Source: an uncultured Lachnospiraceae bacterium
Lineage (GTDB): Bacteria; Bacillota; Clostridia; Lachnospirales; Lachnospiraceae
Length of the DNA stretch: 49,234 nt
Direction: 5' to 3'
Assembly (NCBI GenBank): GCA_946536155.1
Contig: CAMNEB010000003.1
Location: forward strand, 1-49,234
Shown here: positions 9,591 through 42,037 of the stretch, piece after piece
How positions within the stretch are numbered: position 1 is the stretch's first letter
How the letters are laid out: every line of letters starts with the position of its first letter
Made by a program: the position numbers and the translations under genes
Notes under the pieces: model-generated
The model's database searches: none
Told to the model about the DNA's origin: nothing
The model's input: the letters and a program-made list of their open reading frames with translations, nothing else

Positions 9591-9594
9591 GTGA

Positions 9595-9738
9595 TTTTTT
9601 TAACCATAGTAAATCGTTTTTTATGCTTTTTGGCTAAATTTAACTTATAAGTTTAATCTTGTTTAACTATGAAAATGCCCCAAACTTTCATAGTTAAACC
9701 AGTTTAACATTGACTTTACCGTATAGACTAAATAAAAT
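9595..9738 (+). promoter_or_regulatory. Complex control region of the sugar importer operon
   Basis: Promoter: TTGACT (9710-9715), 17 bases, TAAAAT (9733-9738). Upstream lies a perfect 14-base inverted repeat, GTTTAACTATGAAA (9661-9674) and TTTCATAGTTAAAC (9686-9699), 11 bases apart. A related TTTAACCATAGTAAA is at 9599-9613, a GTTTAACAT at 9702-9710 touches the -35 box, and a 12-base palindrome AACTTATAAGTT lies near 9641-9652. Several copies of TTTAAC next to a LacI-family gene suggest cooperative repressor or activator binding. The leader also has a short AGCCT/AGGCT stem before the GGAGGG ribosome site. Confidence 0.6.
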
Positions 9739-9780
9739 TAAAAAAGCCTAAAATAAGGCTAAAAACAAAGGAGGGTATTT

Positions 9781-11187: not shown

Positions 11188-11222
11188 TCGGATCTGTCTG
11201 AAGGGGTATTAAAAGTGATGAC

Positions 11223-11262
11223 CGAATCCGGGCCGGAGAGAGTTTTCTCCGGCCCGGATTCG
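11223..11262 (+). repeat. Intercistronic 17-bp perfect stem-loop
   Basis: 11223-11239 and 11246-11262 are perfect inverted copies (CGAATCCGGGCCGGAGA in the left arm) around a 6-base loop, GC-rich, with no T tail. It sits between binding-protein and permease genes, the place where malE-malF type mRNA-stabilising hairpins occur. A processing or partial-termination role is inferred. Confidence 0.85.
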
Positions 11263-11288
11263 ATAACAGTGATTAGAAGGCGATTTCT

Positions 11289-12278: not shown

Positions 12279-12281
12279 AGG

Positions 12282-16055: not shown

Positions 16056-16140
16056 GTTCGGAAATTGCTTTTAAGTTTATTAAGTGTTGAATCATTCGGA
16101 GTTTAATAGTATCATTCTTCCTCGGGAGTACAGATTCAAA

Positions 16141-22297: not shown

Positions 22298-22298
22298 T

Positions 22299-24205: not shown

Positions 24206-24235
24206 TTGACTTTTACTCTATTTTTTGCATAAAAT
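24206..24235 (+). promoter_or_regulatory. Promoter of the large ATPase-less importer operon
   Basis: TTGACT (24206-24211), 18 bases, TAAAAT (24230-24235). The leader contains GGATT-T-AATCC (24262-24272), a possible operator half-palindrome. No Shine-Dalgarno precedes the first ATG. Confidence 0.5.
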
Positions 24236-24290: not shown

Positions 24291-27257
24291 ATGACTATGA
24301 GAAACGGTACCAAAAAATTAATAGGAACTATAGTTTTCTGCGGTGCTTTCGCAGGCGTTTGCGTACTCCTCAACCTTCGCGGAAAAGAGGACTACAGTGA
24401 AAAGTATGCGGGATATGATCTGAATTCAGATATTGCCGGAATGGAAAGAGCCGGCACATATTCAGGCTATCTTCTGGAACATGAAGGAGCTGCATATCCC
24501 AATAAGACGGTTGATATCGATATCTTCAACTTCACTGCAGGCGATGAAGGCGGAGTCGAGGTAGTAAATGATTATTACGGAGTTGCAAAGGCTCTGTATA
24601 CCGATACCGAATCGGAGGTAACGTTCTCGGTGGATGTACCCGAGAGCGGATATTATTATGTAAAGATGGATTACCTCATCCCCGAGTCCAGAGGTGTCGC
24701 TGCAGAGAGGAGCATTTCCATTAACGGAGAGCTTCCTTTTACCGATGCGGGTAATCTTTCCTTCAGCCGTATCTGGACTGACGGCGGTGAGATCAAGGTT
24801 GACAATCAGGGCAACCAGATCAGGCCTTCACAGGTGGAGATCTATGACTGGCAGACTTCCTATTTCAGAGATGATATGGGATATGTCCAGGATCCTTATA
24901 CTTTCTATTTTGATCAGGGTCAGACGGATATCACTCTCGGTGCAGAGAATGAACCCATGGCCATCAAGGGACTCAGACTTGAGCCTGTAGCTCCCATCCG
25001 TTCCTATGATGAATATATTGCTTCTCTTCCCGCAGATACCGGTGCGGCTTCCGATTTCTATGAAGTGATCCAGGGCGAAGATTCGGTTCGCCGTTCAGAA
25101 TCATCTCTTTATGCAAAATATGACAGGTCTTCACCGACCACCGTTCCCTACAGCGTCACCAACACCGTCCTCAATTATACCGGCGGCGAAGCGTGGAGAG
25201 CATACGGACAGTGGATCGAGTGGGAGTTTGAGGTTCCCGAAGACGGCTACTACAACATTATGATCAAGGGCCGTCAGAATTATCAGAGAGGACAGGTTTC
25301 GTCCCGCGCCATCTACATCGACGGAGAGATCCCCTTTGCAGAGGCAGGCGTTGTTTCCTTCCCTTATGATACGGACTGGAGATGCGTCGAACTCGAGGAC
25401 GAGAACAAAGAGGATTACAAGTTCTATCTTACAAAGGGTACCCACACCATCAGAGCAGAGTCTGTTCTCGGAAGTGTAGGTCCGATCGTTCAGGAACTTG
25501 AGGATTCAACCTTCAGACTTAACCAGATCTACAGAAAGATCCTTGTTTATACCGGTGCAAATCCGGACCAGTACAGAGACTACCGTATTCAGGACAACTA
25601 TCCCGAAGTTATGGAAGCTATGGAGCTTGAATACAGAAGACTCTACAAGATCATCGATGAGTATGTCGAGTTCTCCGGACAGAAGGCTGATAACATAGCT
25701 TCAGCCCAGACCGTTGCTCAGCAGCTCGAGCGTTTCTGTGAGAAGCCCGGCAAGATCACTCATGAGTTTACTACATTTAAGGATAACATCACCGCCATCG
25801 GTACTGCGATGCTCAATATGAGCGATACCAAGATGGATATCGATTACATCGTCATCACCGGAACCGGAGTCGACCCCAAGAAGGATAAGTCACACTTCTG
25901 GAACAAGGCGGCTCACGAGGTCAAGAGCTTCATCGCATCATTCATCGTCGACTATAACGCTGTCGGAGATGTTTACGAAGATGCGAGCAGAGCAGATACC
26001 ATTAAGGTATGGGTTCTCACCGGACGTGATCAGGGTACCATCCTTAAGACGATGATCGATGACACCTTCACTCCCGAGTCGGGCGTCAAGGTCAATGTGG
26101 ACATAGTCGATCCCGGAGCTCTTATGAATGCGGTTCTTGCAGGAAGAGGACCTGACGTGGTTCTTTCCGTCGGTGCCGATCAGCCTGTAAACTACGCACT
26201 CAGACATGCTTCCGAAGATATCACCCAGTTCGAGGGATGGCAGGATGTGCTCAGCCATTATTCACCCAGTTCCTACGAACAGTACAAGCTCGAAGGCGGA
26301 ATTTACGCAGTTCCCGAGCAGCAGACCTTCAACGTAATGTTCTATCGTGAAGACGTTCTTGAAGAGCTCGGTCTTGAACCGCCCAACACCTGGCAGGATC
26401 TTATAGAGATGATGCCTACGATCCAGGGTAATAACCTTTCCGTGGGAATTCCTACGGCAGCAGGATCCAGCGGTGCTGCCACAGCCAGTACCGCAGTCGC
26501 ATCTACGGCACCCGACCTTTCACTCTACTTCACACTTCTCTTCCAGTACGGCGGAGATATGTACAATGAGGCGGGAACCAAGACCACTGTCGATTCCGAA
26601 GCAGGTGTCAGAGCATTTGATGATTATCTCAAATACTTCAATGACTACGGCCTTCCTACGATATATGACTTCGTTAGCCGTTTCCGTTCAGGAGAGATGC
26701 CCATCGGTATCAGTGCATATTCTACATATAACACTCTGATGGTATCCGCTCCCGAGATCAGAGGTCTCTGGGATTTCACACTTGTTCCCGGAACCATCCG
26801 GACTGATGCGGCAGGCAACGAGTATATCGACAGATCCGTATTCATAACAGGTAATGCGACCATGATGATCGCCACCGATGACGAACAGGTCAAGCTTAAT
26901 TCCTGGGAGTTCATGAAGTGGTGGGCAAGACCTGAGACTCAGGTAAGATTCGGACGAGAGATCGAAGCACTCCTCGGATCTTCCGCAAGATATGCTACCG
27001 CTAACCGCGATGCATTCTCACAGCTTTCATGGAGCTACAACGATATCAGAGTTCTTAATGAACAGTGGGATACCACAGTCGGTATCAGAGAAGTGCCCGG
27101 CGGATATTACACCGGTCGCCACATCGCAAATGCCTGCAGAAAGGTCATCAACGAAAAGACGGACAGCCGTGAGACGATCATCGACTATTCGATCCTTATC
27201 AACGATGAGATAGACAGAAAGCGCAGAGAGTTCGGTTTACCGTTATACGGAGAGTAA
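24291..27257 (+). CDS. Giant membrane-anchored extracellular solute-binding protein with two carbohydrate-binding-like repeats
   Basis: 988 residues, about twice a normal binding protein. A hydrophobic anchor at ~9-28 has no proper lipobox (AGVC has Val before Cys), so a signal anchor is likely. Two similar beta-sandwich units follow, around 105-150 (FSVDVPESGYYYVKMDYL, RSISINGELPFTDAG) and 306-352 (FEVPEDGYYNIMIKGR, RAIYIDGEIPFAEAG), resembling CBM6/35-like folds. A helical spacer runs ~400-560. Residues ~565-965 are a family 1 solute-binding fold (IKVWVLTGRDQG, GRGPDVVLSVGADQPVNYA, IYAVPEQQTFNVMFYREDVL, WEFMKWWARPETQVRFGRE). No ribosome binding site precedes 24291 or the next in-frame ATG (24297). 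First gene of the operon. Substrate unknown. Confidence 0.85.
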   Translation: MTMRNGTKKLIGTIVFCGAFAGVCVLLNLRGKEDYSEKYAGYDLNSDIAGMERAGTYSGYLLEHEGAAYPNKTVDIDIFNFTAGDEGGVEVVNDYYGVAKALYTDTESEVTFSVDVPESGYYYVKMDYLIPESRGVAAERSISINGELPFTDAGNLSFSRIWTDGGEIKVDNQGNQIRPSQVEIYDWQTSYFRDDMGYVQDPYTFYFDQGQTDITLGAENEPMAIKGLRLEPVAPIRSYDEYIASLPADTGAASDFYEVIQGEDSVRRSESSLYAKYDRSSPTTVPYSVTNTVLNYTGGEAWRAYGQWIEWEFEVPEDGYYNIMIKGRQNYQRGQVSSRAIYIDGEIPFAEAGVVSFPYDTDWRCVELEDENKEDYKFYLTKGTHTIRAESVLGSVGPIVQELEDSTFRLNQIYRKILVYTGANPDQYRDYRIQDNYPEVMEAMELEYRRLYKIIDEYVEFSGQKADNIASAQTVAQQLERFCEKPGKITHEFTTFKDNITAIGTAMLNMSDTKMDIDYIVITGTGVDPKKDKSHFWNKAAHEVKSFIASFIVDYNAVGDVYEDASRADTIKVWVLTGRDQGTILKTMIDDTFTPESGVKVNVDIVDPGALMNAVLAGRGPDVVLSVGADQPVNYALRHASEDITQFEGWQDVLSHYSPSSYEQYKLEGGIYAVPEQQTFNVMFYREDVLEELGLEPPNTWQDLIEMMPTIQGNNLSVGIPTAAGSSGAATASTAVASTAPDLSLYFTLLFQYGGDMYNEAGTKTTVDSEAGVRAFDDYLKYFNDYGLPTIYDFVSRFRSGEMPIGISAYSTYNTLMVSAPEIRGLWDFTLVPGTIRTDAAGNEYIDRSVFITGNATMMIATDDEQVKLNSWEFMKWWARPETQVRFGREIEALLGSSARYATANRDAFSQLSWSYNDIRVLNEQWDTTVGIREVPGGYYTGRHIANACRKVINEKTDSRETIIDYSILINDEIDRKRREFGLPLYGE

Positions 27258-27260
27258 ATC

Positions 27261-28199
27261 ATGTCACAATTTGTAAACGATTATATCAAGGTTAAAAAGC
27301 ATAACTTCAGAGTCGGAGTGAAGAAGGCAAGACTTTCAAAGAGCTGCTATCTTTTCCTGGCTCCCTATGCGATCCTTTTCACGACCTTCTTTATACTGCC
27401 GATCGTGATCTCGATCATCTTCAGTTTTACTTACTATAATATTCTGGAGCCTCCCAGATTTATCGGACTTCATAATTACCTGTCTCTTTTCCTTGAGGAT
27501 GATATATTCCTGATCTCTATCAAGAATACCTTCATGATCGCTATCATCACCGGACCTCTGGGATACATAATGTCATTCCTGTTTGCATGGCTCATAAACG
27601 AGCTTCCCAGATGGGTACGAAGTGTTGCGGTCGTCATTTTCTACGCACCTTCCATCGCAGGTAACTGTTACGTTATCTTTTCCGTATTTTTCAGAGGCGA
27701 TGCATACGGGCATATCAATGCATTCCTTATAAACAATGGTTTTATCGATGCCCCGATCCTCTGGTTCACCGATCCCAGATACATGCTCAACGTATGTATG
27801 GGCGTCATTCTCTGGATGAGCCTCGGAACCGGATTCCTTTCATTCGTTGCAGGTCTTCAGGGTGTTGACAAGTCACAGTTCGAAGCCGGATACATGGACG
27901 GTATCAAGAACAGATGGCAGGAGCTCTGGTACATCACTCTCCCCAGCATGAAACCCATGCTCATGTTCGGTGCGATCATGTCCATAACCCAGGCATTCGG
28001 TGTCTGCGACGTTACCATGGCACTTTGCGGATATCCTTCGACGGACTACGCAGCAAGAACCATTGTCACCCACCTTTTTGACTATGGTTTCACAAGATTC
28101 GAAATGGGTTACGCATGTGCTATCGCGACCATTCTGTTCCTGTTAATGATGCTCTGCAACAAGGCAATACAGTCACTTCTTGCAAGAGTAGGTACCTGA
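27261..28199 (+). CDS. ABC transporter permease 1A (MalF/UgpA type)
   Basis: 312 residues, six hydrophobic segments, EAA loop FEAGYMDGIKNRWQELWYITLP at about 206-227. GGAGAG lies 6 bases before the ATG and the gap to the binding protein is 3 bases. It should pair with the next gene to form the membrane channel for the 988-residue binding protein. No ATPase gene is nearby. Confidence 0.92.
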   Translation: MSQFVNDYIKVKKHNFRVGVKKARLSKSCYLFLAPYAILFTTFFILPIVISIIFSFTYYNILEPPRFIGLHNYLSLFLEDDIFLISIKNTFMIAIITGPLGYIMSFLFAWLINELPRWVRSVAVVIFYAPSIAGNCYVIFSVFFRGDAYGHINAFLINNGFIDAPILWFTDPRYMLNVCMGVILWMSLGTGFLSFVAGLQGVDKSQFEAGYMDGIKNRWQELWYITLPSMKPMLMFGAIMSITQAFGVCDVTMALCGYPSTDYAARTIVTHLFDYGFTRFEMGYACAIATILFLLMMLCNKAIQSLLARVGT

Positions 28200-28209
28200 G
28201 ATATCCGAT

Positions 28210-29340
28210 ATGAGTAATTTTTCACCAGAAAACAATGAAATCCGTGAGGAGACAGGCAACGTGACTACCGATCTCGATCAGAATTTAGACAATCTCGAAA
28301 CGGATGAGACATTTGCTCCCGAAGCAGGAGAAGCTGCGGAGGCTTCGCTCGAGCCCGCAGAGTTCACTGTTTCAGATGAGTACAAATCATCTTTGGCGGA
28401 AGCGATTATTTCATCTGAAGACGGCACATCAAAAAAGCGTGCCGGCAAGAAAAAGAAAGATGATGATGAAGAGGTATACAAGAAACCGCTCATCAAGAGG
28501 CGTAAGCCCAATCGAAGCGTAGCGGGAGATATTTTCCTTTATATCTTCCTTGCCTTTGTGGCGGTTGTGATGTTCTTCCCCATAGTCTACGCTGTCGAAT
28601 CCGCGTTGAAGCCTCTGGATGAACTCTTCAAGTTCCCTCCGAAGATATTTGCCCAGAACCCTACGCTTGACAACTTCTCGGATCTGTTTGTCACACTGAG
28701 TAAGTCATACGTTTCGTTCTCAAGATACCTGTTCAACACGGTGTTCATCACCTTTATGGGAACCGCGGGCCATCTCTTCATCGCATCCATGGCTGCATTC
28801 GTTCTTGCAAAGTACGAATTCCCCGGCGGCAAGACATTCTTCAAGGTCGTCACCGTTGCAATGATGTTCACCGGTTATGTTACCGGTATTCCCAACTACA
28901 TCATCATGAGTAAGCTGGGAATGATCGATACCTACTGGTCCATAATCATCCCCGCATTTGCTTCGCCCATGGGACTCTTCCTTATGAAGCAGTTCATGGA
29001 AGGTCTTCCCACCTCCCTTATCGAGGCGGCCAAGATTGACGGAGCTACAGAGTGGAAAGTATTTACCAGCATCGTAATGCCTAACGTCAAGCCCGCATGG
29101 CTGACGCTGATCATATTCTCCGTTCAGGGTCTGTGGAATAACAAAGCATCGGCTCTTATCTATTCGGAGGAGATGAAGACACTTCCTTACGCCATGCAGC
29201 AGATACAGGCAGGCGGAATCGCCAGAACAGGTGAAGCTGCAGCGGTTCTCGTAGTACTGATGGTAGTACCTATTACAATATTCATATTCTCGGAGAGCCA
29301 GATTCTCGAAACCATGGCTTCTTCCGGCTTGAAGGATTGA
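28210..29340 (+). CDS. ABC transporter permease 1B with a long charged N-terminal extension
   Basis: 376 residues. Residues 1-100 form a cytosolic extension, acidic at first (EAGEAAEASLEPAEF) and then basic (KKRAGKKKKDDDEE...KPLIKRRKPNR). The usual MalG-type permease follows with six hydrophobic segments and the EAA loop IEAAKIDGATEWKVFTSIVMP near 273-293. Ordinary permeases of this class have only ~10-20 residues before the first helix. The extension may contact the shared ATPase or the cytosolic tails of neighbouring membrane proteins (inference). Translation probably overlaps that of the next gene. Confidence 0.9.
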   Translation: MSNFSPENNEIREETGNVTTDLDQNLDNLETDETFAPEAGEAAEASLEPAEFTVSDEYKSSLAEAIISSEDGTSKKRAGKKKKDDDEEVYKKPLIKRRKPNRSVAGDIFLYIFLAFVAVVMFFPIVYAVESALKPLDELFKFPPKIFAQNPTLDNFSDLFVTLSKSYVSFSRYLFNTVFITFMGTAGHLFIASMAAFVLAKYEFPGGKTFFKVVTVAMMFTGYVTGIPNYIIMSKLGMIDTYWSIIIPAFASPMGLFLMKQFMEGLPTSLIEAAKIDGATEWKVFTSIVMPNVKPAWLTLIIFSVQGLWNNKASALIYSEEMKTLPYAMQQIQAGGIARTGEAAAVLVVLMVVPITIFIFSESQILETMASSGLKD

Positions 29341-29345
29341 TGCTG

Positions 29346-30974
29346 ATGAAAATGTCCGGTTTTAAACAATTAAAAACATTAGGGATCGCTGCTGCTGTTG
29401 CGGCAGCGGCTCTTGCGGTTCCGATGCATGCACAGGCCATCGAACACAGAACTTACACCTATATCTACGATTATTGGGAGGAAGTTCAGGACTGCCCGAA
29501 CGTCTATGATGTTTATTCCGTATATACATCTTCGGACCTCGGTCTGGACAAGAGAATGAATTCACCCAGCGGTCTTTATGTCAAGGATGATCACGTATAT
29601 ATCTGTGACACCGGAAACAACCGCATCGTAGTTCTGGAGAAGACTGAAACCGGCCTTGTTCCCTCTGACATCATAGAGAAGGTCAAGGGTGCTCCCGGTG
29701 AGAACTCTCTCAGCGGACCTACAGATATAGCCATTTCCGACGAAGGAAATATTTTTATCGCCGACAAGGGTAATAACAGGATCATCAAGACGGACAGCAA
29801 TCTGAACTATATCATGGAGTTCGGGCTTCCCACGGATTCGGCGATATCATCCGATACCACATTCTTCCCCAACAAGATCGTCATCGATACCGCGGAGAGA
29901 GTGTACTGCATAGCGGACGGTATCAACAAAGGACTTATCAAGTACGAAGCAGACGGAACGTTTTCCGGATTTGTCGGTGCTACCAAGGCCGCTTATGACT
30001 GGCTGGATTATCTCTGGAAGAGATTCGCTACCCAGGAACAGCTGGACAGAATGCAGAACGACGTTCCTACCGAGTATGACAACATCTATATGGACTATGA
30101 AGGGTTCATATATGCATGCACGGGAAGGTTCGAGCCTGAAGATCTCGATGCCGGAACCGTTGATGCTGTAAGAAGACTTAACCTTCTGGGAAATGACATT
30201 CTTGTCAGAAACAGCGATATTCCCGTATACGGAGATCTCTACTGGGGATCTGCCGGCGGATATTCGGGACCTTCATATTTCTCCGATGTCACCGCATTTG
30301 AAAATGACATTTTCGTATGCCTTGACAGAAACCGCGGAAGACTGTTCGGATATGACGATCAGGGACGCATGGTATTTGCATTCGGCGGTAACGGAAATAT
30401 GGACGGATATTTCAGACGTCCCGTTGCCATCGATCATATAGGATATGATCTCATCGTTCTCGATACACTCGACTGCTCGATAACCTATTTTGTTCTCAGT
30501 GATTTCGGTAAGGACATATACGGAGCTATCGATAAGTTCGACGAAGGCGACTATGACGAGTCCGGAGCTCTTTGGGAGAAGGTACTTTCCACCGACGGAA
30601 ACTATGATCTTGCATATATCGGGATCGGACGTTCTCTTCTCAGACAGGAGAGATACAAAGAGGCGATGAAGTATTTCGAGATCAAGTATGACGATGACAA
30701 TTACTCCAAAGCTTTCAAGGAATACAGAAAAGAGTGGATACAGACCCATCTCTTTGCGACTGTCCTTGTACTGCTGATCCTCATCCTCATTCCTCTTACC
30801 CTTGATAAGATAAGGGATATGAAGATCGAAATAGCAACATCCGATGTATTCAGATTCCCGGATCCCGAGGATAATATGACCAGGGAAGAGATCAGGGAGT
30901 ATCACAAAAAACAGAGACAGGAAGCCAGGGAGCGTGAAAAAGCTAAGAAAGCTGCCCGCAAACGTGGTTATTAA
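29346..30974 (+). CDS. NHL beta-propeller / TPR protein with C-terminal membrane anchor
   Basis: 542 residues from the ATG at 29346 (GAAGGA 9 bases upstream; ATGs at 29340 and 29352 are alternatives). Signal peptide to about residue 31. NHL-type blades include YICDTGNNRIVVLEK, IFIADKGNNRIIKTD and later RGRLFGYDDQGRMVFAFGG. A TPR-like helical pair follows near 400-455 (ALWEKVLSTDGNYDLAYIGIGRS, ERYKEAMKYFEIKYDD). One membrane helix at ~468-485 is followed by a cytosolic tail rich in Lys, Arg and Glu. An outward-facing protein interaction or sensing platform for the importer is inferred. No catalytic residues are evident. Confidence 0.8.
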   Translation: MKMSGFKQLKTLGIAAAVAAAALAVPMHAQAIEHRTYTYIYDYWEEVQDCPNVYDVYSVYTSSDLGLDKRMNSPSGLYVKDDHVYICDTGNNRIVVLEKTETGLVPSDIIEKVKGAPGENSLSGPTDIAISDEGNIFIADKGNNRIIKTDSNLNYIMEFGLPTDSAISSDTTFFPNKIVIDTAERVYCIADGINKGLIKYEADGTFSGFVGATKAAYDWLDYLWKRFATQEQLDRMQNDVPTEYDNIYMDYEGFIYACTGRFEPEDLDAGTVDAVRRLNLLGNDILVRNSDIPVYGDLYWGSAGGYSGPSYFSDVTAFENDIFVCLDRNRGRLFGYDDQGRMVFAFGGNGNMDGYFRRPVAIDHIGYDLIVLDTLDCSITYFVLSDFGKDIYGAIDKFDEGDYDESGALWEKVLSTDGNYDLAYIGIGRSLLRQERYKEAMKYFEIKYDDDNYSKAFKEYRKEWIQTHLFATVLVLLILILIPLTLDKIRDMKIEIATSDVFRFPDPEDNMTREEIREYHKKQRQEAREREKAKKAARKRGY

Positions 30975-30997
30975 CAGGTCTACTTGAGAGAATTGAT

Positions 30998-31693
30998 ATG
31001 GCAGGATTAACTATTAACGAAAACAACATCATAGGAAAATGCGCAGGATGGTTTAAGAATACCTTCAACGCAAAGTATTGGGATTCGCTTAAGTTTTCTC
31101 TTTACTGCATAACGCATCCGCTCGACGGATTCTGGGATCTGACCCATGAAAAGAGGGGAACATATGCAGCGGCGAACACCATCTTGTTTTTGACGATCCT
31201 CATAAGGATCCTCAAGCTCAAGTACACCAGCTTCATCTTTATCACGGTCTATTGGGAAGAACTCAATATATTCCTTTACATAGCGAGTATCCTTTTCCCG
31301 CTTGCACTGTTTGTTATCGGAAACTGGGCGACCACGACTCTGTTTGACGGTAAAGGCCGGCTTGGTCAGGTATATATCGGAACCTGTTATTCGCTTGTTC
31401 CCTATCCTCTGATGCAGATTCCCCTTATGTTCATCAGTAACGTTGTCACCAATGAAGAAGCAGAGTTCTATTCGGTTCTCTCGGCTCTTTCCATCGTATG
31501 GTGCGGAGTCCTTATCATTGCGGCGATGGGACAGATACATGAGTTCTCGGGAGCAAAGAATATACTGTTCATGATCTTCTCGCTCTTTGCAATGCTGGTC
31601 ATGGTCTTCATCCTGCTTTTGTTCTTCAGTATGATCTCCCAGGGTGTTGCGTATTTCTACTCGCTCTACAGAGAGTTCATGTTCAGGATGTAG
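30998..31693 (+). CDS. Yip1-family multi-pass membrane protein
   Basis: 231 residues with about five to six hydrophobic segments, and the amphipathic N-terminal stretch and CITHPLDGFWDLTHEKRG motif typical of bacterial Yip1 (PF04893) proteins. It sits between the NHL/TPR protein and the DUF5696 protein in the operon. Bacterial Yip1 proteins have no settled function; a scaffold or assembly role for the importer is a guess based on position. GAGAGAATTGAT precedes the start. Confidence 0.8.
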   Translation: MAGLTINENNIIGKCAGWFKNTFNAKYWDSLKFSLYCITHPLDGFWDLTHEKRGTYAAANTILFLTILIRILKLKYTSFIFITVYWEELNIFLYIASILFPLALFVIGNWATTTLFDGKGRLGQVYIGTCYSLVPYPLMQIPLMFISNVVTNEEAEFYSVLSALSIVWCGVLIIAAMGQIHEFSGAKNILFMIFSLFAMLVMVFILLLFFSMISQGVAYFYSLYREFMFRM

Positions 31694-31756
31694 CCAGATC
31701 TCAGTCAGTGTGATCCATAATCAGATTTTAAATAATTCAGTTATACCGGAGCATTC

Positions 31757-34351
31757 ATGAAAAAAAGAAGTGCAGAACAAATCACAGAGAGCAGAAATGC
31801 CGTATTAAAGACCCTTAAGGGCATGATAGTGCCTGTTGTGGTGCTTGTGCTGATCGTCGGGCTGTTTGCCTTCATGGTCAAGAATACGGCTATAGAAGAT
31901 GAGATTGAGGTCATTCCCGTCAATGCATATGCGGGAGACGGCAAGGCTATCGTTCTGGAAAACGATCAGCTTGTTTTCACCATGGATCCCAATACCACAT
32001 ATTTCACCGTCAGAGTGAAATCTTCCGGCAAGGAATGGACTTCGATCCCTGCGGATGTCGATAATGACACCATTGCGATGGGCTCGGAGAAGGGGCATAT
32101 AAGATCCACCGTCAACCTCACCTATTCCGATGACATCGGTTCGGAGGTTCCTCTCAACAACTACTCCTACAGTATCGAGAATCAGACTTATGACATCGAA
32201 TCCGATGAGGATTCCATTACTGTTCACTACAGCATAGGCAAGGTGCAGAAGGAATTCACCATTCCTCCCGTATGTACGGCTGCACGCTTTGAAGCCCTCC
32301 TTGCAAATGCAACCCAGGCCGAGTCAAACATGATAAAGCAGTACTACAAGAAGTACGATATCAACAATCTCGGCAAAAAGGATGACAAAGAGGCACTTCT
32401 TGCCAATTATCCCGAACTTGCAAATCAGGTTCTTTACATTCTCCGTGATACCGCAACTGATGCGATTAAGGGAAAACTCCAGGGAATGTTTGAAGGACTC
32501 GGATACACCTATGAGGAGTATCTTGAGGATAAGGCTCTTGATCTGTCGATAGCAGTGAATGAAAATCCTGTATTCAATATTGATGTCACTTACAGGATAG
32601 ACGGACGCGATCTCATAGTTGAGATGCCTTACAGCGCAATGCAGTTCCCCGCAGACCGTCCTATCCTTACCGTTGACCTTCTTCCTTTCTTCGGTGCGGG
32701 CGGACTTGATGATGAGGGATTCATGCTGGTTCCCGAGGGAAGCGGTTCCCTTATCCATTTCAATAACGGCAAGACCGCGCAGAGTGTTTATTATGCAAAT
32801 GTTTACGGCTGGGATATGTGCCATGCGAGAAATGCACTTGTTCATAATACCAGCACAGCATTCAGCACCTTCGGTATTTCTAACGGAAATGACTCCTTCA
32901 TATGCAATGTTGAAAGGGGAGCATCCTATGCCGCTGTAGAGGCTGATATCTCCGGAAGATTCAACTGCTATAACAATGTTAACGTGGAATACGGCGTTAT
33001 CGAGCGCGAGCAGTTTGACGTAGGAAGCATATCCAATAACCAGGTATTCGTTTACCAGGAGGATATTCCCGAGGAGACTCTTTCACAGAGATATACCTTT
33101 ATCGATTCCGGAAGCTATGTTGATATGGCTAAGACATATCAGGAGTATTTGTTCGGGAACTACGGTGAATATATCACCGCTAATACCGACACTTCGGCTC
33201 CTGTCGTACTCGAGATCATAGGTGCGGTCGACAAGGTCAAGCAGATCGTCGGTGTTCCCGTGTCCAGACCTCTTGAACTCACCACATACAAGGAAGCAAA
33301 CGAGATCGTCACCCAGCTCGATTCCGAAGGATTCGACAACATGATCGTCAAGATGGTAGGCTGGTGCAACGATGGTGTCAATCAGTCCATACTCAAGGAT
33401 GTTGATACCGTACATTCTCTCGGATCGGGAAGAGACCTTAAGAACCTCTGCGAGACCGTAGCTTCCCAGGGTAATGCCATTTACCTCGACGGTATAACCG
33501 AGTATGCTTACAACTCGAATGTTTTCGACGGATTCTTTGCTTTCAAGGATTCCGCAAGATTCATAAGCCGTGAGCTCAGCGCACTGTATCCTTACAGTAA
33601 TGTCACTTACGGAATAAGAGAAGGCCTTGATGCCCATTATCTGCTTCATGAGCAGCTCATCCTGAAGATGATGAACAATCTCTACAAAGCGACCGGCAAG
33701 TACGGTGCGACCGGTGCTTCCTTCCAGGATGTCGGTATGGACCTTGCAAGTGATTTCTACAGAAAGAATCCCTATTCAAGAGAGCAGGCCCTTCTTGATC
33801 AGTCCGCAACACTTAAGGCTATCAGAGACGACGGCGGACACTTCATGATCAACTACGGTAACATCTATGCAGCGGTTTACAGTGATGTTATCACTCATAT
33901 GGATCTGATGGGCAGTGAATACACCATAATCGATGAGAGGATCCCGTTCCTTGAGCTTGCTCTTCACGGATATATCAACTATACCGGTGAGGCTGCCAAT
34001 ATCTGCGGTGACGAAAACCAGGAGATCCTTGCATCCGCAGAATATGGTGCAGGTCTTTGCTACAGCGTTATGGCTGAGGAGGTTGAAGCTCTTCAGAAGA
34101 CTCTCTATCCTCAGTACTACGGAAGTTCTTATGATTCTGTCCATGACAGGATGGTTGCTACATATACCAGATACAATAATGAACTCGGTCATATCTTCAA
34201 TCAGGAGATGACCGGCCACAGAAACCTTAACGAGTACGTTTCCTGCACTGAGTATAAGGACGGTACCAAGGTGTATGTAAATTACGGATACGAAGCATTT
34301 ACCGTAGACGGTGTGACTGTTCCTGCAAGGGATTATAAGGTTGTAAAATAG
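31757..34351 (+). CDS. DUF5696 protein, anchored extracellular, glycosidase-like C-terminal half
   Basis: 864 residues. CGGAG lies 5 bases before the ATG. One membrane anchor (about 21-44) has basic residues before it, so the bulk is outside. Residues ~55-480 are beta-rich with a helical insert, including SGSLIHFNNGKTAQSVYYAN. Residues ~480-800 alternate strands and helices like a TIM barrel: VVLEIIGAVDKVKQIVG, FDNMIVKMVGWCNDGVNQ, NAIYLDGITEYAYN, GATGASFQDVGMDLASDFY, DDGGHFMINYGNIYAAVYSD. This pattern recalls GH101-like hydrolases, but I cannot assign catalytic acids. It may process or present the glycan taken up by the operon's transporters. Confidence 0.8.
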   Translation: MKKRSAEQITESRNAVLKTLKGMIVPVVVLVLIVGLFAFMVKNTAIEDEIEVIPVNAYAGDGKAIVLENDQLVFTMDPNTTYFTVRVKSSGKEWTSIPADVDNDTIAMGSEKGHIRSTVNLTYSDDIGSEVPLNNYSYSIENQTYDIESDEDSITVHYSIGKVQKEFTIPPVCTAARFEALLANATQAESNMIKQYYKKYDINNLGKKDDKEALLANYPELANQVLYILRDTATDAIKGKLQGMFEGLGYTYEEYLEDKALDLSIAVNENPVFNIDVTYRIDGRDLIVEMPYSAMQFPADRPILTVDLLPFFGAGGLDDEGFMLVPEGSGSLIHFNNGKTAQSVYYANVYGWDMCHARNALVHNTSTAFSTFGISNGNDSFICNVERGASYAAVEADISGRFNCYNNVNVEYGVIEREQFDVGSISNNQVFVYQEDIPEETLSQRYTFIDSGSYVDMAKTYQEYLFGNYGEYITANTDTSAPVVLEIIGAVDKVKQIVGVPVSRPLELTTYKEANEIVTQLDSEGFDNMIVKMVGWCNDGVNQSILKDVDTVHSLGSGRDLKNLCETVASQGNAIYLDGITEYAYNSNVFDGFFAFKDSARFISRELSALYPYSNVTYGIREGLDAHYLLHEQLILKMMNNLYKATGKYGATGASFQDVGMDLASDFYRKNPYSREQALLDQSATLKAIRDDGGHFMINYGNIYAAVYSDVITHMDLMGSEYTIIDERIPFLELALHGYINYTGEAANICGDENQEILASAEYGAGLCYSVMAEEVEALQKTLYPQYYGSSYDSVHDRMVATYTRYNNELGHIFNQEMTGHRNLNEYVSCTEYKDGTKVYVNYGYEAFTVDGVTVPARDYKVVK

Positions 34352-34374
34352 AAAGTCTATACGGAGACCCAGGT

Positions 34375-35286
34375 ATGAAGAAGAATTTAAACGGAAAAAT
34401 GAGTGGGCTTGAGAAGAGAAGAGCTGTAACAGGATATCTGTTCATATCTCCCTTTATTCTCGGATTTCTGCTCTTTATGGTCAAGCCTCTGTTCCAGTCG
34501 CTTTACATGAGCTTCTGTAATGTTGAAGTCGGCTCCGGAAACTTCAAGTTGGTGCTTGCCAAGAATTTTGTGAACTATAACAAGGCGTTCAGGGTAGACC
34601 CCGATTTCTCGAGAATGCTCATTGAGGGCTTCCTGAGAATGATAGTGTACAGCCTTGCGATCATGGTCTTTAGTTTCTTCGTGGCTCTCATCCTCAATCA
34701 GGACTTCCACGGAAGAGCACTTGTAAGAGCCATTTTCTTCCTGCCGGTCATCCTTTCCAGCGGTGTTATCCTCGGTCTTGAGTCCAATAACTCCATTATC
34801 TCCATGGTCCAGGCAGATATCGCAGATGAGCTTAACGGTGTCAGCGTTACAGCGGCTCTGGAATCGATACTTCGAACGGCCGGGGTCGGTACGCGGGCAT
34901 ATGAGCAAGTCTTCGAACTGATAGACAATATTTACGATATAGCTCTTGCTTCGGGTATTCAGATCATAGTTTTCCTGTCCGGTCTCCAGACAATACCCGA
35001 GAGTATGTATGAAGCAGCTTCCATCGAAGGATGTACTTCATGGGAAAGCCTCTGGAAGGTTACATTCCCCATGGTGAGTTCCATATTCCTTGTAAACTGG
35101 GTATACACGATAGTCGACTTCTGTATGAGAACCGATAATGAAGTCATGGAGAAGATCACTGATAACCTTATTCTCCTCGATTATGGTTATGCCTCAGCAA
35201 TGGCTTGGAGTTATTTCGTTCTTACAATGGTCTTCTTAGCGATAAGCGCGTTTATCATTTCCAGGAGGGTGTATTATTATGAGTAA
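34375..35286 (+). CDS. ABC transporter permease 2A (MalF/UgpA type)
   Basis: 303 residues, six hydrophobic segments, EAA loop YEAASIEGCTSWESLWKVTFP near 211-231. Between helices it has an unusual ~60-residue insertion (about 140-195, SIISMVQADIADELNG onward) facing outward. It starts after GGAGACCCAGGT and overlaps the next gene by 8 bases. It is the first half of a second membrane channel in the same operon. Confidence 0.9.
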   Translation: MKKNLNGKMSGLEKRRAVTGYLFISPFILGFLLFMVKPLFQSLYMSFCNVEVGSGNFKLVLAKNFVNYNKAFRVDPDFSRMLIEGFLRMIVYSLAIMVFSFFVALILNQDFHGRALVRAIFFLPVILSSGVILGLESNNSIISMVQADIADELNGVSVTAALESILRTAGVGTRAYEQVFELIDNIYDIALASGIQIIVFLSGLQTIPESMYEAASIEGCTSWESLWKVTFPMVSSIFLVNWVYTIVDFCMRTDNEVMEKITDNLILLDYGYASAMAWSYFVLTMVFLAISAFIISRRVYYYE

Positions 35287-36289
35287 TGCTGCAGCGGTAA
35301 AAGCCCCTGCTGGTATGGGCAACACGACGGCAAAGCCGAAGCTTTCTTCTTACAAAAAGAAGAAGATTGCCAGAAACATGTTTATAAGTGTGGTAAGATT
35401 CATACTCCTTTTCGGATTGTGTTTCCTTATCATCCAGCCGATCCTTAACAAGATATCCATCAGTTTTATGACTGAGGAGGATCTTTACGATCCTGTTGTC
35501 ATTAATATTCCCGGACATTTTACTACCGAGAACTATGAGCTCAGTTATACGATCATGTCCTACAAGGAAGCATTCAAGAATTCCATGATCATATCGTTTA
35601 CCATAGCGGTCATTCAGGTTCTTGTATGTACCTTCGTCGGATACGGATTCGCAAGATATGAGTTCCCTTTCAAGAAGTTCTGGTTCGGTGCCGTTCTTCT
35701 TATGATCATTGTTCCTCCGCAGGTTATTTCGACATCACTGTATCTGCACTTCAGATTCTTTGATATCCTGGGTATCATAAGACTTATAAAGGGCAGTGCG
35801 ATCAACATGAACGGTTCGGTCCTTCCGTATTACATGATGAGTGCGGGATGTATGGGCCTTAAGAACGGTCTTTATATCTATCTGATAAGACAGTTCTTCA
35901 GGAACATTCCCAAGGATATTGAGGAAGCAGCGTACGTTGACGGCTGCGGAACTCTCAGGACCTTCTTCACCATCATGCTTCCCGATGCAAGGCCGATCCT
36001 TACCTCCTGTTTCCTGTTTGCCTTTGTATGGCAGTGGACCGACGGATTCTATTCGACCATGTTCCTCGGAACAACCAAGCTTGTTAGTACCTCGCTTTCA
36101 AGGATTGTTGATTCGCTCTCTTCATTCATCATGAGAGAGCTGGGTATACAGTCTTCGATATCTGTTGCTTACAGTAACTGTATCCTTTCAACCGGTACTC
36201 TGATGATCATCCTTCCTCTTATCATCCTGTATCTGTTCGCTCAGAGAGGATTCGTTGAGAGTTTGTCACAGACCGGTATCAAGATGTAA
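35279..36289 (+). CDS. ABC transporter permease 2B (MalG/UgpE type)
   Basis: 336 residues, six hydrophobic segments after a ~30-residue basic N-terminus, and EAA loop EEAAYVDGCGTLRTFFTIMLP near 220-240. AGGAGGG lies about 11 bases before the ATG, inside the upstream gene. It forms a channel with 2A, probably served by the binding lipoprotein encoded next. Shared ATPase required. Confidence 0.92.
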   Translation: MSNAAAVKAPAGMGNTTAKPKLSSYKKKKIARNMFISVVRFILLFGLCFLIIQPILNKISISFMTEEDLYDPVVINIPGHFTTENYELSYTIMSYKEAFKNSMIISFTIAVIQVLVCTFVGYGFARYEFPFKKFWFGAVLLMIIVPPQVISTSLYLHFRFFDILGIIRLIKGSAINMNGSVLPYYMMSAGCMGLKNGLYIYLIRQFFRNIPKDIEEAAYVDGCGTLRTFFTIMLPDARPILTSCFLFAFVWQWTDGFYSTMFLGTTKLVSTSLSRIVDSLSSFIMRELGIQSSISVAYSNCILSTGTLMIILPLIILYLFAQRGFVESLSQTGIKM

Positions 36290-36293
36290 AGTA

Positions 36294-36401
36294 TGGACAT
36301 TTCGCAAGCGTATATGCTATAATCGCTTGTGGGTTTTGATAAGCCCGGTATATATCCGTAATAATACGGAATTATATATTTTTTAACAGACCTTTAAGGT
36401 C
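36294..36401 (+). promoter_or_regulatory. Strong promoter and structured leader of the second binding protein
   Basis: TGGACA (36294-36299), 18 bases, TATAAT (36318-36323) with an extended TGC just upstream. An inverted repeat CGCAAGCG (36303-36310) / CGCTTGTG (36324-36331) brackets the -10 box. In the leader, CCGTA-ATAA-TACGG (36356-36369) and the palindrome GACCTT-T-AAGGTC (36389-36401) lie just before AAGGAGG. An internal promoter gives high expression of the binding protein. Confidence 0.65.
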
Positions 36402-36413
36402 AAAAGGAGGATT

Positions 36414-37904
36414 ATGAAGAGAAAGTTTTTGAACCAGCTTGTTGCTGTCGGCGCTACCGCAGCCATGGTTGCAGGACTTGCAGGATGTGGCGGACCCACT
36501 GAACCCGTTACAGATCCCAATCCCGCTCCCGATGTTACGCAGCCCAGCACAACCACCGATCCTGTAGCTGATCCCGTTGACGAGAGCCCTTACGAGGTCA
36601 TCACAGATGAAAATGGTAATCCCATTGATCTCGGCGGAATGGAGATCATCATCCGTGACTGGTGGTCATCCGGCGAGCCTGCTACTCCGAACAACGATTA
36701 CGAGGAAGCTCGTGAAGAGTATCGTGAGTGGTGCCAGGAGACCTACAACTACACCATCAAAGAGCTTGCTATTTCAGACTGGGGCGGAGCTCCTCAGGAT
36801 TTCTCTGACTATGTTCTTGCCGGTGATGATGGAAACAACTATGTGTTCACCATTCGTCCCGATGCAGCTACCACTGCAGCTCTTTCACAGGGTCTTATGT
36901 ATGACCTCGCTACTCTGGATTGCCTTGATTTCGATCACAATCCTATCTTCACCAGAAACCAGATCGATGAGCTCTATTCACAGGGTGACAGCATCTATGC
37001 TATGTACGCTGCCAACAACGGATTCGCAGAAGCTCGTGCGGGTATCTACTTCAACAAGAGAGTTCTTGAGGATGCAGGTATCGATCCCGAGAGCATCTAT
37101 GATATGCAGGCAGACGGAACCTGGACTTGGGACGCTTGGATCCAGATGATGGATACAGTTCAGAGAGACAAGGACAACGATGGTACCATCGATGTTTACG
37201 GATGCGGAGAGAACTACGGTGATCTCATTCACGGATTCGTTATGTCAAACGGCGGAAGCTATGTCAAGTATGACAACTCCGGCAAGTTCGTTATCGCTCT
37301 TGAGGATGCAAATACTCTTGAGGGACTTACCAAGTGTAAGGAAGTTATGGACACCTATGATGTTCACGCTTCTTACGAAGCTGACGCAGCTTGGGACTTC
37401 TACAAGCAGGATTGGCTTTCCGGACACTTCGCTTTCTATCCCGGACAGGTTTGGGAGTGCGACAACGTCAGACAGATGGATGACGAAGTTGGATTCGTTA
37501 CCTTCCCTAAGGGACCTTCAGCAGGAAGCAACTACACCTCACTTGCAAGTGACAACCTTTATGTAATCCCTGCTTGCTACAGCGCAGAGAAGGCATGGGC
37601 TCTTGCATTCGCATATCAGCTCTACTTCGGCGATGTTCCCGGATATGAAGATTTCATCGAGGGACTTGACGGACTTAAGGCTGGATACTATGCAAAGTTC
37701 GATGACACCAGAGCAGTTGACGAGACCGTCGTTGACATCATCCGTTCTTCAGGATATGAGCCCGGCGAACTTGTTCCCAACATGCAGATCGGTCCTGATT
37801 TCGAGTACAACATCTATGCAAACGGACCCGATATCTCTTCTGTAATCGAGGCTACAAAGACTGCATGGCAGACCTACATCGATGAGGCTAACGCTAAGAG
37901 ATAA
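36414..37904 (+). CDS. ABC sugar-binding lipoprotein (second of the locus)
   Basis: 496 residues. Signal peptide ends LAGC with lipidated Cys25, then a Pro/Thr/Asp linker (about 26-60), then a family 1 solute-binding fold: GGMEIIIRDWWSSGEPA, YVFTIRPDAATTAALSQG, ARAGIYFNKRVLEDAGIDPES, TWTWDAWIQMMDTVQRDKD. Its codon use is biased towards few preferred codons (GGA, CTT, GAC), suggesting strong expression, as does its own promoter and AAGGAGG site. Substrate unknown. A terminator follows. Confidence 0.92.
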   Translation: MKRKFLNQLVAVGATAAMVAGLAGCGGPTEPVTDPNPAPDVTQPSTTTDPVADPVDESPYEVITDENGNPIDLGGMEIIIRDWWSSGEPATPNNDYEEAREEYREWCQETYNYTIKELAISDWGGAPQDFSDYVLAGDDGNNYVFTIRPDAATTAALSQGLMYDLATLDCLDFDHNPIFTRNQIDELYSQGDSIYAMYAANNGFAEARAGIYFNKRVLEDAGIDPESIYDMQADGTWTWDAWIQMMDTVQRDKDNDGTIDVYGCGENYGDLIHGFVMSNGGSYVKYDNSGKFVIALEDANTLEGLTKCKEVMDTYDVHASYEADAAWDFYKQDWLSGHFAFYPGQVWECDNVRQMDDEVGFVTFPKGPSAGSNYTSLASDNLYVIPACYSAEKAWALAFAYQLYFGDVPGYEDFIEGLDGLKAGYYAKFDDTRAVDETVVDIIRSSGYEPGELVPNMQIGPDFEYNIYANGPDISSVIEATKTAWQTYIDEANAKR

Positions 37905-37934
37905 CCTCTGAGATAAGATTCAGATTTTCTTATG

Positions 37935-37967
37935 CAGGGCGGCGGCAAAACGCCGCCCTGTTTTTTT
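37935..37967 (+). terminator. Rho-independent terminator of the importer locus
   Basis: CAGGGCGGCG (37935-37944) pairs perfectly with CGCCGCCCTG (37951-37960) around GCAAAA, followed by seven T. Confidence 0.95.
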
Positions 37968-38011
37968 AGAGAAATTCAAGAAAACGGTTTACTATTCGAT
38001 GGAGTGTGATC

Positions 38012-38983: not shown

Positions 38984-38993
38984 GGTGAAGTAC

Positions 38994-39935
38994 ATGACAG
39001 AGAATGCGGATAAGAAAATATACTGGCATCTTCCCGGATTTTGTATTTTCCGTCTCCTTAATCAGGTCCTGTTCAACCTTATGAAGGATCATCCGGAATA
39101 TTTCAATGAGGGATATACCGTGGGCTCGGCCTACGGGACTTTTCCCGGTGCGATATGGAACGGCGGGAGAGCTGTTATAGGAATAACCCAGAAGGCACAG
39201 ATCGAATCGACCTTAAACATTTATAACTCCAGAAATATTCCGGTCAGGTTCACCTGGACCAATTCGCTTATCGGTGAGAAGGAGTGTTACGATACTTACT
39301 GCAATCTCATCATGCGTCTTGCAAATAACGGGATGAATCAGGTGCTTGTCAATTCTCCCGCGCTTGAGGAATATCTGAGAAAAAATTATCCCGGTTTTAA
39401 GATGATCTCCTCGACCACCAAGAGGATAACCGGATTGGATAAACTGTCCGAGGAGTTTGATAAGGACTATTTTCTTGTTGTACTTGATTACGATTTGAAC
39501 CATAACGAAGAGGCACTGAAAAAAGTTGTGGAATCCGGAAATGCCGGAAGATGCGAGATACTTGTAAATGAAGTCTGTTTCCCGAACTGTCCGAGGCGTA
39601 AAGAGCATTACGAACAGCAGTCGAGGATGCAGCTTGAATATGATGCCATGACGTCGTTCCCCTGTCTGAACATCCAGAATCCCAGGACCTTTGCCGAGTG
39701 CATGGACAGACCCGCATTCATCAAAGATACCGAGATCCCTGAGTATGTTGAGAAGGGATTTAACAATTTCAAGATTGCCGGCAGGGGGATGCCGGAGAGC
39801 TACGTTCTGGATTCATATATTTATTTCCTTGTACGTCCCGAGTACAGGGATCTGGTGAGGAATAAAATACAGACCTCACTGCGCGAACTGAGAAACAGAG
39901 CTGCTGCGGGGGCAGGGAATAAGAGGAAGATATGA
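38994..39935 (+). CDS. U32-peptidase-like protein B (paralogue of A)
   Basis: 313 residues from the ATG at 38994 (GAGGTG 6 bases upstream). It is clearly related to protein A along its length: WHLPGFCIFRL, YGTFPGAIWNGGR, VRFTWTNSLIGEKEC, MISSTTKRITGLDKL, LVVLDYDLN, NEVCFPNCPRRKEHYE and NFKIAGRGMPES near the end (KIEGR changed to KIAGR, a key-residue difference). The central Cys pattern is kept but the CxxxxxC extension of A is reduced. Such pairs in UbiU-UbiV form heterodimers, so A and B may do the same. Its stop overlaps the xylanase start (ATGA), so all three are translated together. Confidence 0.6.
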   Translation: MTENADKKIYWHLPGFCIFRLLNQVLFNLMKDHPEYFNEGYTVGSAYGTFPGAIWNGGRAVIGITQKAQIESTLNIYNSRNIPVRFTWTNSLIGEKECYDTYCNLIMRLANNGMNQVLVNSPALEEYLRKNYPGFKMISSTTKRITGLDKLSEEFDKDYFLVVLDYDLNHNEEALKKVVESGNAGRCEILVNEVCFPNCPRRKEHYEQQSRMQLEYDAMTSFPCLNIQNPRTFAECMDRPAFIKDTEIPEYVEKGFNNFKIAGRGMPESYVLDSYIYFLVRPEYRDLVRNKIQTSLRELRNRAAAGAGNKRKI

Positions 39936-42037
39936 GGTTTAAAAAGGTATCGAAAAATCTTATCAGAGTGGGGATAGGGGTTCTTTCAGTATCGGCCATG
40001 GTCCTTTCCGGGATCGCTTTTCCGGGATCTGCCGGAAACAGAGTATATGCCGATACATATTATGCCGATTATATGTCTCAGGAAAGCCTTAAGGAAGTCT
40101 ATGCCGATCGTTTCAGACTTGGTGTGGCGGTACAGGCGATCAGCCACTGGGGCGATCAGAGTGCGGAGATCGGAAATGTTACCAAAGAGCAGTTCATAGA
40201 CAATCAGTTCAATTCCATGACCTTCGGAAATGAATTCAAGCCTGCTTACAATTTTTCCGCATCATCCGACGGTCTTTTTAAAGTCGACAGAGCGGCTGAG
40301 GAGTTGCTCGACTGGGCAACCGAGCACAATATGCCGGTAAGAGGTCATGTCCTCGTCTGGCATTCGCAGGTCGATCCCTCAATTTTTGCCAAGGATTTCA
40401 AAGCAACCTCCGGCGGAACGATCACCAAGGATTACAATGCCGTTCTTGATGAGGACTGTCTGGTAGACAGAGCTACACTTCTTAAGAGGCTCGATACATA
40501 TATAAACAGCGTCATTGAGTATACCTATGCCAACGGATATGCTGATACCATCTATGCGTGGGATGTTGTAAACGAAGCGGTTGAAGAGGGACAGGATGAC
40601 GGCCTCAGGAGAAGCTACTGGTACAGGATAATCGGTCCCGATTTCCTTTATTACAGCTTCCTCTATGCAAGAGAGGCAGAGACCAGATGTGCAAAACAGT
40701 ATGCGGCAGATTACGGACTCGATCCCGAAGGGGACCTTTCGTCCATTACTCCCGAGCTTTTCTACAATGATTACAACGAGTGGTACACAGTCAAGTGCAA
40801 CAAGATCATCACACTTCTTACCGAAACACCCTTCAACGAAGGCCATAACATGGTAAAGAGTGATGTCATCAATCCCGACGGAGACGGAACCATCTACGGA
40901 GACGGACTCATTGACGGTATCGGACTTCAGGGACACATGACGGACACGGAGTCCCTTGCCCAGTACAAGACCGCCATTGAAAAATATGCAGCAGCCATCA
41001 ACAATCTCCATGTCACCGAGCTGGATGTGGGAAAATCCGTTACCGGTCCTGCCGGAGATTTCAGACAGGCTAAGTTCTACTATGATTTCTTCAAACTTCT
41101 CTGCGATGAGCAGGATGCCGGAGTGAATATCACCTCCGTAACCCTCTGGGGACTTACGGATACCTCCTCATGGAGAAAGGATACGGAGCCCCTGCTCTTT
41201 AACAGGGATCTGTCCGGAAAGCCCGCTTTTGAAGCGGTCCTCATGGCAGGCAAGGGAGAAGAGTTCACTCTTAAGGATACAGCTGCAATAGGTAAGGCCG
41301 AGGACATACTGATCACCTTCGAACCTGTGACCGTAGACGGACAGATTTCCAACAAAACACCTACCGAGTACGGCTTCATCGGCCGCGGTGCAGGTCATCA
41401 GGCTACCATCATGCTCAAGCTGGGCGTAAACCATACCGAGGGAGCCACTCCCGGATTCTCGCTCCAGGTCAGGAGAGAGGCTCAGGATGCGACCGTGAGG
41501 TATGACATAACCAGATTCATCGGTCATACCGTAAAGATCGGTTTCTATTACAAGTCCGCAGATGCAAAATTATATCTCGGAACCGAAGGATATGAATCAG
41601 GTCCTCTTGAATATGAAATAACAGGCGAAGACTGGCAGCTCATCGAAGCAGTGCTTAAGGTTCCCGAGGATGCCGATACCGTGGCACTGTATTTTGAGAC
41701 CGACGGAAACGGTGAGTTTTTGATCGACGATTTCTGCATCACTCTTGCGGATGATATGGAAGCAGCTGACGGATTGACTGATCCGAATGCAGAGCCTGCT
41801 CCCGAAGATACGGAAACAGGTGCGGAAACTGAGACTCCTGCAGCAACACCCGAAGCAGGAACGGGAGGCGGTGGAAGCAAGACCTTCGGCATCATCGCAC
41901 TCATCGCAGCGCTTGTGATCGCAGCACTCGGCCTTAAGGTCGCTTCGGATAAAAAAGTGTCCGCAAAAGAGGATGCTCCCGAAAAGAAGGATCAAAAGAG
42001 CGGAGACAAGCAGGACAAGCAGGATAAGAAAAACTAA
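39932..42037 (+). CDS. GH10 endo-1,4-beta-xylanase, membrane-anchored, with C-terminal binding module
   Basis: 701 residues. Signal peptide (residues 1-40, ending VYA). GH10 catalytic domain about 50-435: FGNEFKPAYNF, RGHVLVWHSQ, WDVVNEAV with acid/base Glu215, HVTELDVG with nucleophile Glu363, and LWGLTDTSSW. A beta-sandwich module ~450-610 (ILITFEPVTVDGQ to IDDFCITL) resembles CBM4/9/22. A Pro/Thr/Glu linker (~618-645) leads to a membrane helix (about 652-670) and a Lys/Asp-rich cytosolic tail. It degrades xylan at the cell surface. The extra membrane anchor replaces a sortase signal. GAGGAAG lies 3-5 bases upstream. Cotranscribed with the U32-like pair. Confidence 0.93.
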   Translation: MRFKKVSKNLIRVGIGVLSVSAMVLSGIAFPGSAGNRVYADTYYADYMSQESLKEVYADRFRLGVAVQAISHWGDQSAEIGNVTKEQFIDNQFNSMTFGNEFKPAYNFSASSDGLFKVDRAAEELLDWATEHNMPVRGHVLVWHSQVDPSIFAKDFKATSGGTITKDYNAVLDEDCLVDRATLLKRLDTYINSVIEYTYANGYADTIYAWDVVNEAVEEGQDDGLRRSYWYRIIGPDFLYYSFLYAREAETRCAKQYAADYGLDPEGDLSSITPELFYNDYNEWYTVKCNKIITLLTETPFNEGHNMVKSDVINPDGDGTIYGDGLIDGIGLQGHMTDTESLAQYKTAIEKYAAAINNLHVTELDVGKSVTGPAGDFRQAKFYYDFFKLLCDEQDAGVNITSVTLWGLTDTSSWRKDTEPLLFNRDLSGKPAFEAVLMAGKGEEFTLKDTAAIGKAEDILITFEPVTVDGQISNKTPTEYGFIGRGAGHQATIMLKLGVNHTEGATPGFSLQVRREAQDATVRYDITRFIGHTVKIGFYYKSADAKLYLGTEGYESGPLEYEITGEDWQLIEAVLKVPEDADTVALYFETDGNGEFLIDDFCITLADDMEAADGLTDPNAEPAPEDTETGAETETPAATPEAGTGGGGSKTFGIIALIAALVIAALGLKVASDKKVSAKEDAPEKKDQKSGDKQDKQDKKN

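Follow-up and report, generated by a model that had tools for sequence, protein, structure and literature searches.

An uncultured Lachnospiraceae bacterium of the rumen carries a block of nine plus-strand genes at positions 24291–37904 of the 49,234-nucleotide stretch of DNA analysed here, called the window throughout (Table 1). Gene number, strand, order and domains, read from open reading frames and Pfam, are as the first-pass annotation had them, and the single terminator that it placed at the end of the block corresponds to a strong terminator-like site just past that end. Two sets of genes have the composition of a CUT1 importer, with two BPD_transp_1 permeases and a solute-binding protein (SBP) each, the second SBP being recognised by a weak match under the Pfam cut-off (E 4.6e-4, 20.7 bits vs 26), and an EAA-type coupling loop is found in all four permeases. 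In the NHL/TPR protein, the N-terminus has a hydrophobic stretch and the C-terminal part a single membrane helix; its tail is charged. Of the charged cytosolic extensions described earlier, that of the second permease of the first pair is lineage-specific and not conserved (the protein has 366–374 aa in 6 of 52 near relatives and 249–323 aa in the other 46). Promoter-like sites show no excess over shuffled sequence (20 in the region vs a shuffle mean of 22.9); the site before the second SBP makes it possible that the block is read as one long transcript with an extra start for this gene.

Table 1. Features of the block and its borders (positions in the window)
Feature	Position	Strand	Basis and remarks
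Promoter-like site before block	24206..24235	+	TTGACT-18-TAAAAT, 10/12; weak, region-wide frequency equals chance
Large binding protein (XloE-like)	24291..27257	+	Anchor, two CBM35/CBM6-like beta-sandwiches, helical bundle, SBP domain
Permease A, first pair (XloF-like)	27261..28199	+	BPD_transp_1 E 9.6e-11; EAA-type loop
Permease B, first pair (XloG-like)	28210..29340	+	BPD_transp_1; EAA-type loop; charged N-terminal extension
NHL propeller + TPR protein, 545 aa ("X", N-terminal part)	29337..30974	+	Pfam domains
Yip1 membrane protein ("X", C-terminal part)	30998..31693	+	Yip1 E 1.5e-10
DUF5696 protein	31757..34351	+	E 7.7e-184; N-terminal anchor and GH129-fold domain (predicted)
Permease A, second pair (AxoF-like)	34375..35286	+	BPD_transp_1 E 5.8e-6; EAA loop
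Permease B, second pair (AxoG-like)	35279..36289	+	BPD_transp_1 E 2.4e-9; EAA loop
Promoter-like site before second SBP	36294..36323	+	TGGACA-18-TATAAT, 11/12, TG-extended
Second binding protein (AxoE-like)	36414..37904	+	Weak SBP_bac_1; lipobox LAGC read by eye
Terminator-like site, strong	37934..37961	+	11-pair stem, 9 G-C, then T-run
GH10 protein, next operon, outside block	39932..42037	+	Glyco_hydro_10 E 3.4e-62

The large binding protein (988 aa) has its SBP domain at about residues 582–886 according to Pfam. In its AF2 model (mean pLDDT 65), a helix at the N-terminus is followed by two beta-sandwiches, a helical bundle and an SBP domain of low model quality, and the fold match of this C-terminal half was used only for naming the domain. 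With a profile made from the first 500 residues, 5x7g was matched on the second sandwich (E 6.8e-8) and 2vzp on the first (E 4.1e-7), and the matched stretches of both are presumably CBM35 modules. The top match of the profile, a designed coiled coil (E 9.5e-9), falls on the helical bundle and is probably compositional. Among the large-SBP members given to Pfam, CBM_35 was reported in 6 of 27 and Golvesin_C in 20 of 27.

The neighbourhood of the block was compared in a near set of 62 loci, obtained by searching genome contigs with the window DUF5696 protein (titles Lachnospiraceae, Butyrivibrio, Acetatifactor or Blautia), and in a distant set of 78 loci (two annotated plasmid loci and 76 fetched regions) with 67 distinct DUF5696 frames; only loci with a long enough contig count as assessable. 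Gene set and order recur across Bacillota. In the near loci, NHL/Yip1 lies directly upstream of DUF5696 in 54/54, permease A of the second pair (A2) directly downstream in 58/58, permease B (B2) downstream in 55/55, and the large SBP shares the locus in 50/50. The corresponding counts for the distant loci are 65/65 for NHL/Yip1, 60/60 for each of the two downstream permeases and 48/55 for the large SBP, whose set is missing from the fetched stretch in the remaining seven; a scripted "no" for NHL/Yip1 (L172) and for permease A2 (L143, L147) was due in all three cases to overlong ORF starts, and these were counted as present. Seen from the other side, 58 distant large-SBP genes comprise 48 that share a locus with DUF5696, 7 that are cut off and 3 without it. 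The large-SBP set stands upstream in 40 distant loci and downstream in 8, so the two halves appear to be movable. Independent occurrence of the two importer sets, named earlier as the observation that would speak against a single complex, is therefore mostly not what is seen, since the large SBP accompanies 98 of 105 assessable DUF5696 frames (129 in all, 62 near and 67 distant), although the seven distant loci without the large-SBP set and the three without DUF5696 are departures from it. Refetched regions contained whole blocks (L169 and L173–L176), blocks cut by the end of a contig or stretch (L172, L177, L188) and real exceptions to the linkage (L170, L178, L179); an earlier impression that the large-SBP set often lies apart from DUF5696 was partly an artefact of a search that scored no more than two or three top candidates in each genome.

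Co-occurrence in genomes is close to complete. In 398 Bacillota genomes, PF18952 matched 49 at E 1e-3, 40 over the cut-off and 38 at E below 1e-140; of the 40, G314 owes its match to a GH129 protein and G292 to a DUF6259 protein. The large SBP was found at E 1e-60 in 41 genomes and NHL/TPR at E 1e-15 in 39 (the same 38 and one weak match), so that strong DUF5696, large SBP and NHL/TPR occur together in 38 genomes, the large SBP alone in 3 and strong DUF5696 alone in none. The three genomes with only the large SBP (G077, G101, G149) are represented by contigs of 3.1–4.3 kb that break off within the first permease pair, and they were rejected as exceptions. Median identity to the window in the near loci is 80% for each permease of the first pair, 70% for Yip1, 68% for the large SBP, 66 and 67% for the second permease pair, 57% for NHL/TPR, 52% for DUF5696 and 49% for the second SBP, which is the most variable member because its median is the lowest. 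SBP2-like frames number six in L100 and five in L105, mostly behind a single permease pair, a layout suggestive of many binding proteins for one importer. Seven block families diverge in parallel over 42 loci (r 0.83–0.96), a correlation in which species kinship is uncontrolled and which is thus no proof of linkage.

Additionally, NHL/TPR and Yip1, adjacent separate genes in the window, are fused in at least 43 of the 67 distant cases (44 if L172 is included) into a single frame of about 670–835 aa where complete, and the Pfam order is NHL, TPR, Yip1 in both fused frames checked (L132, L107). The fusion suggests one contact within the block, between these two proteins. By synteny, genome co-occurrence and this fusion, the block is one inherited unit.

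The block contains no ATPase, as stated before, but its surroundings require a correction: an operon at 16084–24147 codes for HlyD-like proteins, an FtsX permease and two ABC ATPases of this export type (22299–24147), which end 143 bases upstream of the block. A block without an ATPase is the usual CUT1 arrangement because such importers share an MsmX/MsmK-type ATPase, and a UgpC-family gene of this kind lies elsewhere in the same genome (NF008653, 492.1 bits, cut-off 432). The importers that depend on MsmX in Bacillus subtilis, on MsmK in Streptococcus pneumoniae or on the shared ATPase of Caldicellulosiruptor (Anaerocellum) bescii likewise consist of an SBP and two permeases without an ATPase, whereas in the window two importers are kept together with three accessory proteins between them. 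In C. bescii, msmK deletion causes a severe growth defect on cellobiose, cellulose, xylan and pectin (Rodionov et al., 2021; PMC8579813). A UgpC/MsmX-type ATPase would thus be expected to serve the block permeases, and in the P. cellulosilyticus block ugpC stands directly in front. Against this reading, the strict EAA pattern is found in the four permeases of the distant loci in 57/57, 42/54, 22/61 and 43/60 cases, the low value being that of permease A of the second pair. A gene with a MusI-family match (L151:2820-3515; E 6.6e-33, 114.2 bits, cut-off 160) adjoins the UgpC-type ATPase gene.

A close counterpart of the block has been described in print. The C. bescii operon xloEFG-X-GH129-axoFGE-xynF-xynE-xynD-xyn10A-xynX-xynB is a xylan degradation locus with two CUT1 transporters, MsmK is listed as their shared ATPase, and 10- to 100-fold rises on xylan are reported for a gene group including proximal genes (Rodionov et al., 2021; PMC8579813). 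The earlier statement that similar gene orders occur in other Firmicutes is borne out, but the view that they had no functional description does not hold for this operon. It shares with the window the gene order, a block without an ATPase and adjoining xylanase genes; it differs in that X is one NHL-TPR-Yip1 protein where the window has two genes, and in that the CAZyme genes continue in the same operon while the GH10 gene of the window follows a terminator-like site. Within the open-licence literature, PMC8579813 alone treats XloEFG and AxoFGE together, no mention of DUF5696 and no paper combining any three of Yip1, NHL repeat, permease and solute-binding protein were found, and a search of main texts gave no role for X or DUF5696. 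XynR binds the operator of the xylan degradation locus (PMC12285236), and the exact published operator occurs 150 bp upstream of the block in L132 (genome G174) and also in L131 and L133. The L132 block is followed by a 1370-aa GH43-CBM6 protein and two GH10 genes, and the genome is presumably that of C. bescii or of an organism very close to it. Unlike L132, the window has XynR-like sites at chance level only (6 matches to the core pattern vs 6.07 expected), which leaves room for other regulators.

Xylanase genes are frequent neighbours of the block in the near loci. Besides the GH10 gene in the next operon of the window, GH10 is present in 37 of the 44 near loci (out of 62) that exceed 18 kb, directly before the large SBP in 25, elsewhere in 9 and unplaced by the script in 3, as tallied with a profile built on six sequences, for three of which Pfam confirmed GH10; genomes G000 and G139 each contain about two clear GH10 genes. 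In the distant loci this narrow profile matches only 6/78, and the neighbours are varied (GH43, GH26, GH3, GH42 and others among the 25 commonest families listed per run, from 122 of 154 non-redundant neighbours), so xylan does not appear to be the general substrate. The block would rather be a general platform that is xylan-directed in the near lineage. In Paenibacillus O199, crystalline cellulose was the only substrate on which GH129 and CBM35 proteins, possibly those of this block, were produced (PMC4867992). Elsewhere in the window, a pair of neighbouring genes at 38006–39935, in the operon of the GH10 gene, gives weak peptidase U32 matches, and relatives of their products adjoin the block in many near loci. 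At 7382–13133, a GH26 gene and a LacI regulator gene accompany an SBP and two CUT1 permeases, again with no ATPase, and probably form a second locus, of mannan type.

The DUF5696 protein has a membrane anchor at about residues 23–41 and, in its AF2 model (mean pLDDT 82), a GH129 fold over residues 64–864. The remark that the block holds no soluble hydrolase is thus literally right, but it passes over a protein with a predicted glycosidase fold. In Pfam at E 0.01 the window protein matches PF18952 only and not PF11308, which itself gave no match in 299 Bacillota genomes searched, a result that does not show absence. DUF5696 is kin in sequence to GH129 enzymes, with one GH129 member (L198, G314) used as a bridge between them, and it differs by its membrane anchor from the enzymes NagBb (5wzn) and DagB/ZgGH129 (5opq, 8rzk); the place of DagB in GH129 is doubted by its own authors (PMC5698469). 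Acid positions were mapped by eye, and residues were counted in 58 near and 58 distant sequences, with 20 fetched regions left out. D658 of the window matches D435 of NagBb and D486 of DagB, a position with D or E in only 24/58 distant members, and N699 stands at the position of DagB E517, where all 58 near members have N or Q. The pair of residues is D/N in 48, N/N in 9 and D/Q in 1 of the near relatives, both acids are kept in 15/58 distant members, and L132, in its xylan locus, has T at both. On this mapping, the window and most members lack one or both of the acids needed in the studied relative (DagB D486 and E517), and the GH129-labelled protein of the C. bescii xylan operon may differ in function from ordinary GH129 enzymes. 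One fetched locus seemed to contain a very long DUF5696 "fusion", which was an artefact of withheld bases (3000 of its 3554 letters are X); its frame is still among the 67 distant ones. DUF6259 proteins (L189, L190) match DUF5696 weakly over the barrel part, a hint of kinship with the glycosidase fold.

That the block is probably one functional unit has to be weighed against other explanations of the same genes. Two ordinary CUT1 importers could be co-regulated and co-inherited for one diet without a working link, while NHL/TPR, Yip1 and DUF5696 serve another purpose at the cell surface; Rodionov et al. treat the sets as two transporters (PMC8579813), and the loci with one half only, together with the shifting place of the large-SBP set, agree with this, but the nearly complete genome co-occurrence and the position of the accessory genes between the two pairs in most loci make it unlikely. 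A sensor formed by NHL/TPR-Yip1 and DUF5696, reporting bound glycan and standing outside transport, would suit the layout of propeller, TPR, membrane segment and charged tail as well as several NHL/TPR-Yip1 loci without the large-SBP set. It is very unlikely given that Pfam finds no signalling domain in these proteins and that neighbouring regulators vary, none being constant among the 25 commonest families listed. That the two upstream ATPases power the block permeases is hardly credible despite their closeness and the presence of the FtsX/HlyD module in 10/44 long near loci, since they belong with the export genes, the module occurs in 0/78 distant loci and lies upstream, downstream or inverted (L044) in near ones, and the genome has its UgpC-family ATPase.

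A further alternative concerns DUF5696 itself, which could be an active alpha-glycosidase, anchored in the membrane and removing side groups ahead of import, the block then being an importer with its enzyme. The modelled fold, the sequence kinship, the distant members with both acids and the GH129 label given by the C. bescii authors (PMC8579813) speak for it. The asparagine at the second position in the window, the residue pairs of the near relatives and the two threonines of L132 speak against it, with the reservation that the mapping was by eye and other residues could serve, and on balance this explanation is rather doubtful.

The preferred reading, a single conserved cell-surface system for the uptake of hemicellulose fragments, most likely xylan in this lineage, is considered likely. 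Xylan would be hydrolysed extracellularly, and the polymer or long fragments would be held by the anchored large binding protein, which would feed the first permease pair; the lipoprotein-type second binding protein would feed the second pair, both pairs being powered by a shared ATPase. NHL/TPR and Yip1 may form a membrane scaffold beside DUF5696. Next to the importers, DUF5696 could bind substituted fragments, or trim them where its acidic residues are retained. This claim does not extend to physical contact among all the parts. More tentatively, and on the doubtful side of possible, the block could be a Gram-positive polysaccharide-handling machine in which one assembly of two CUT1 pairs, an NHL-TPR-Yip1 scaffold, a largely non-catalytic GH129-fold lectin and a CBM-bearing SBP couples surface hydrolysis, capture and import.

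In many Bacillota, both published transporters are thus passed on together with gene X and "GH129" as a single system; DUF5696 additionally gains a predicted fold of GH129 type. Paenibacillus JDR-2 uses polymeric xylan faster than an oligosaccharide derived from it, and the means by which it couples surface hydrolysis to import is a stated gap (PMC4765114). The block may be regarded as a widespread and testable candidate for such coupling of hydrolysis and import.
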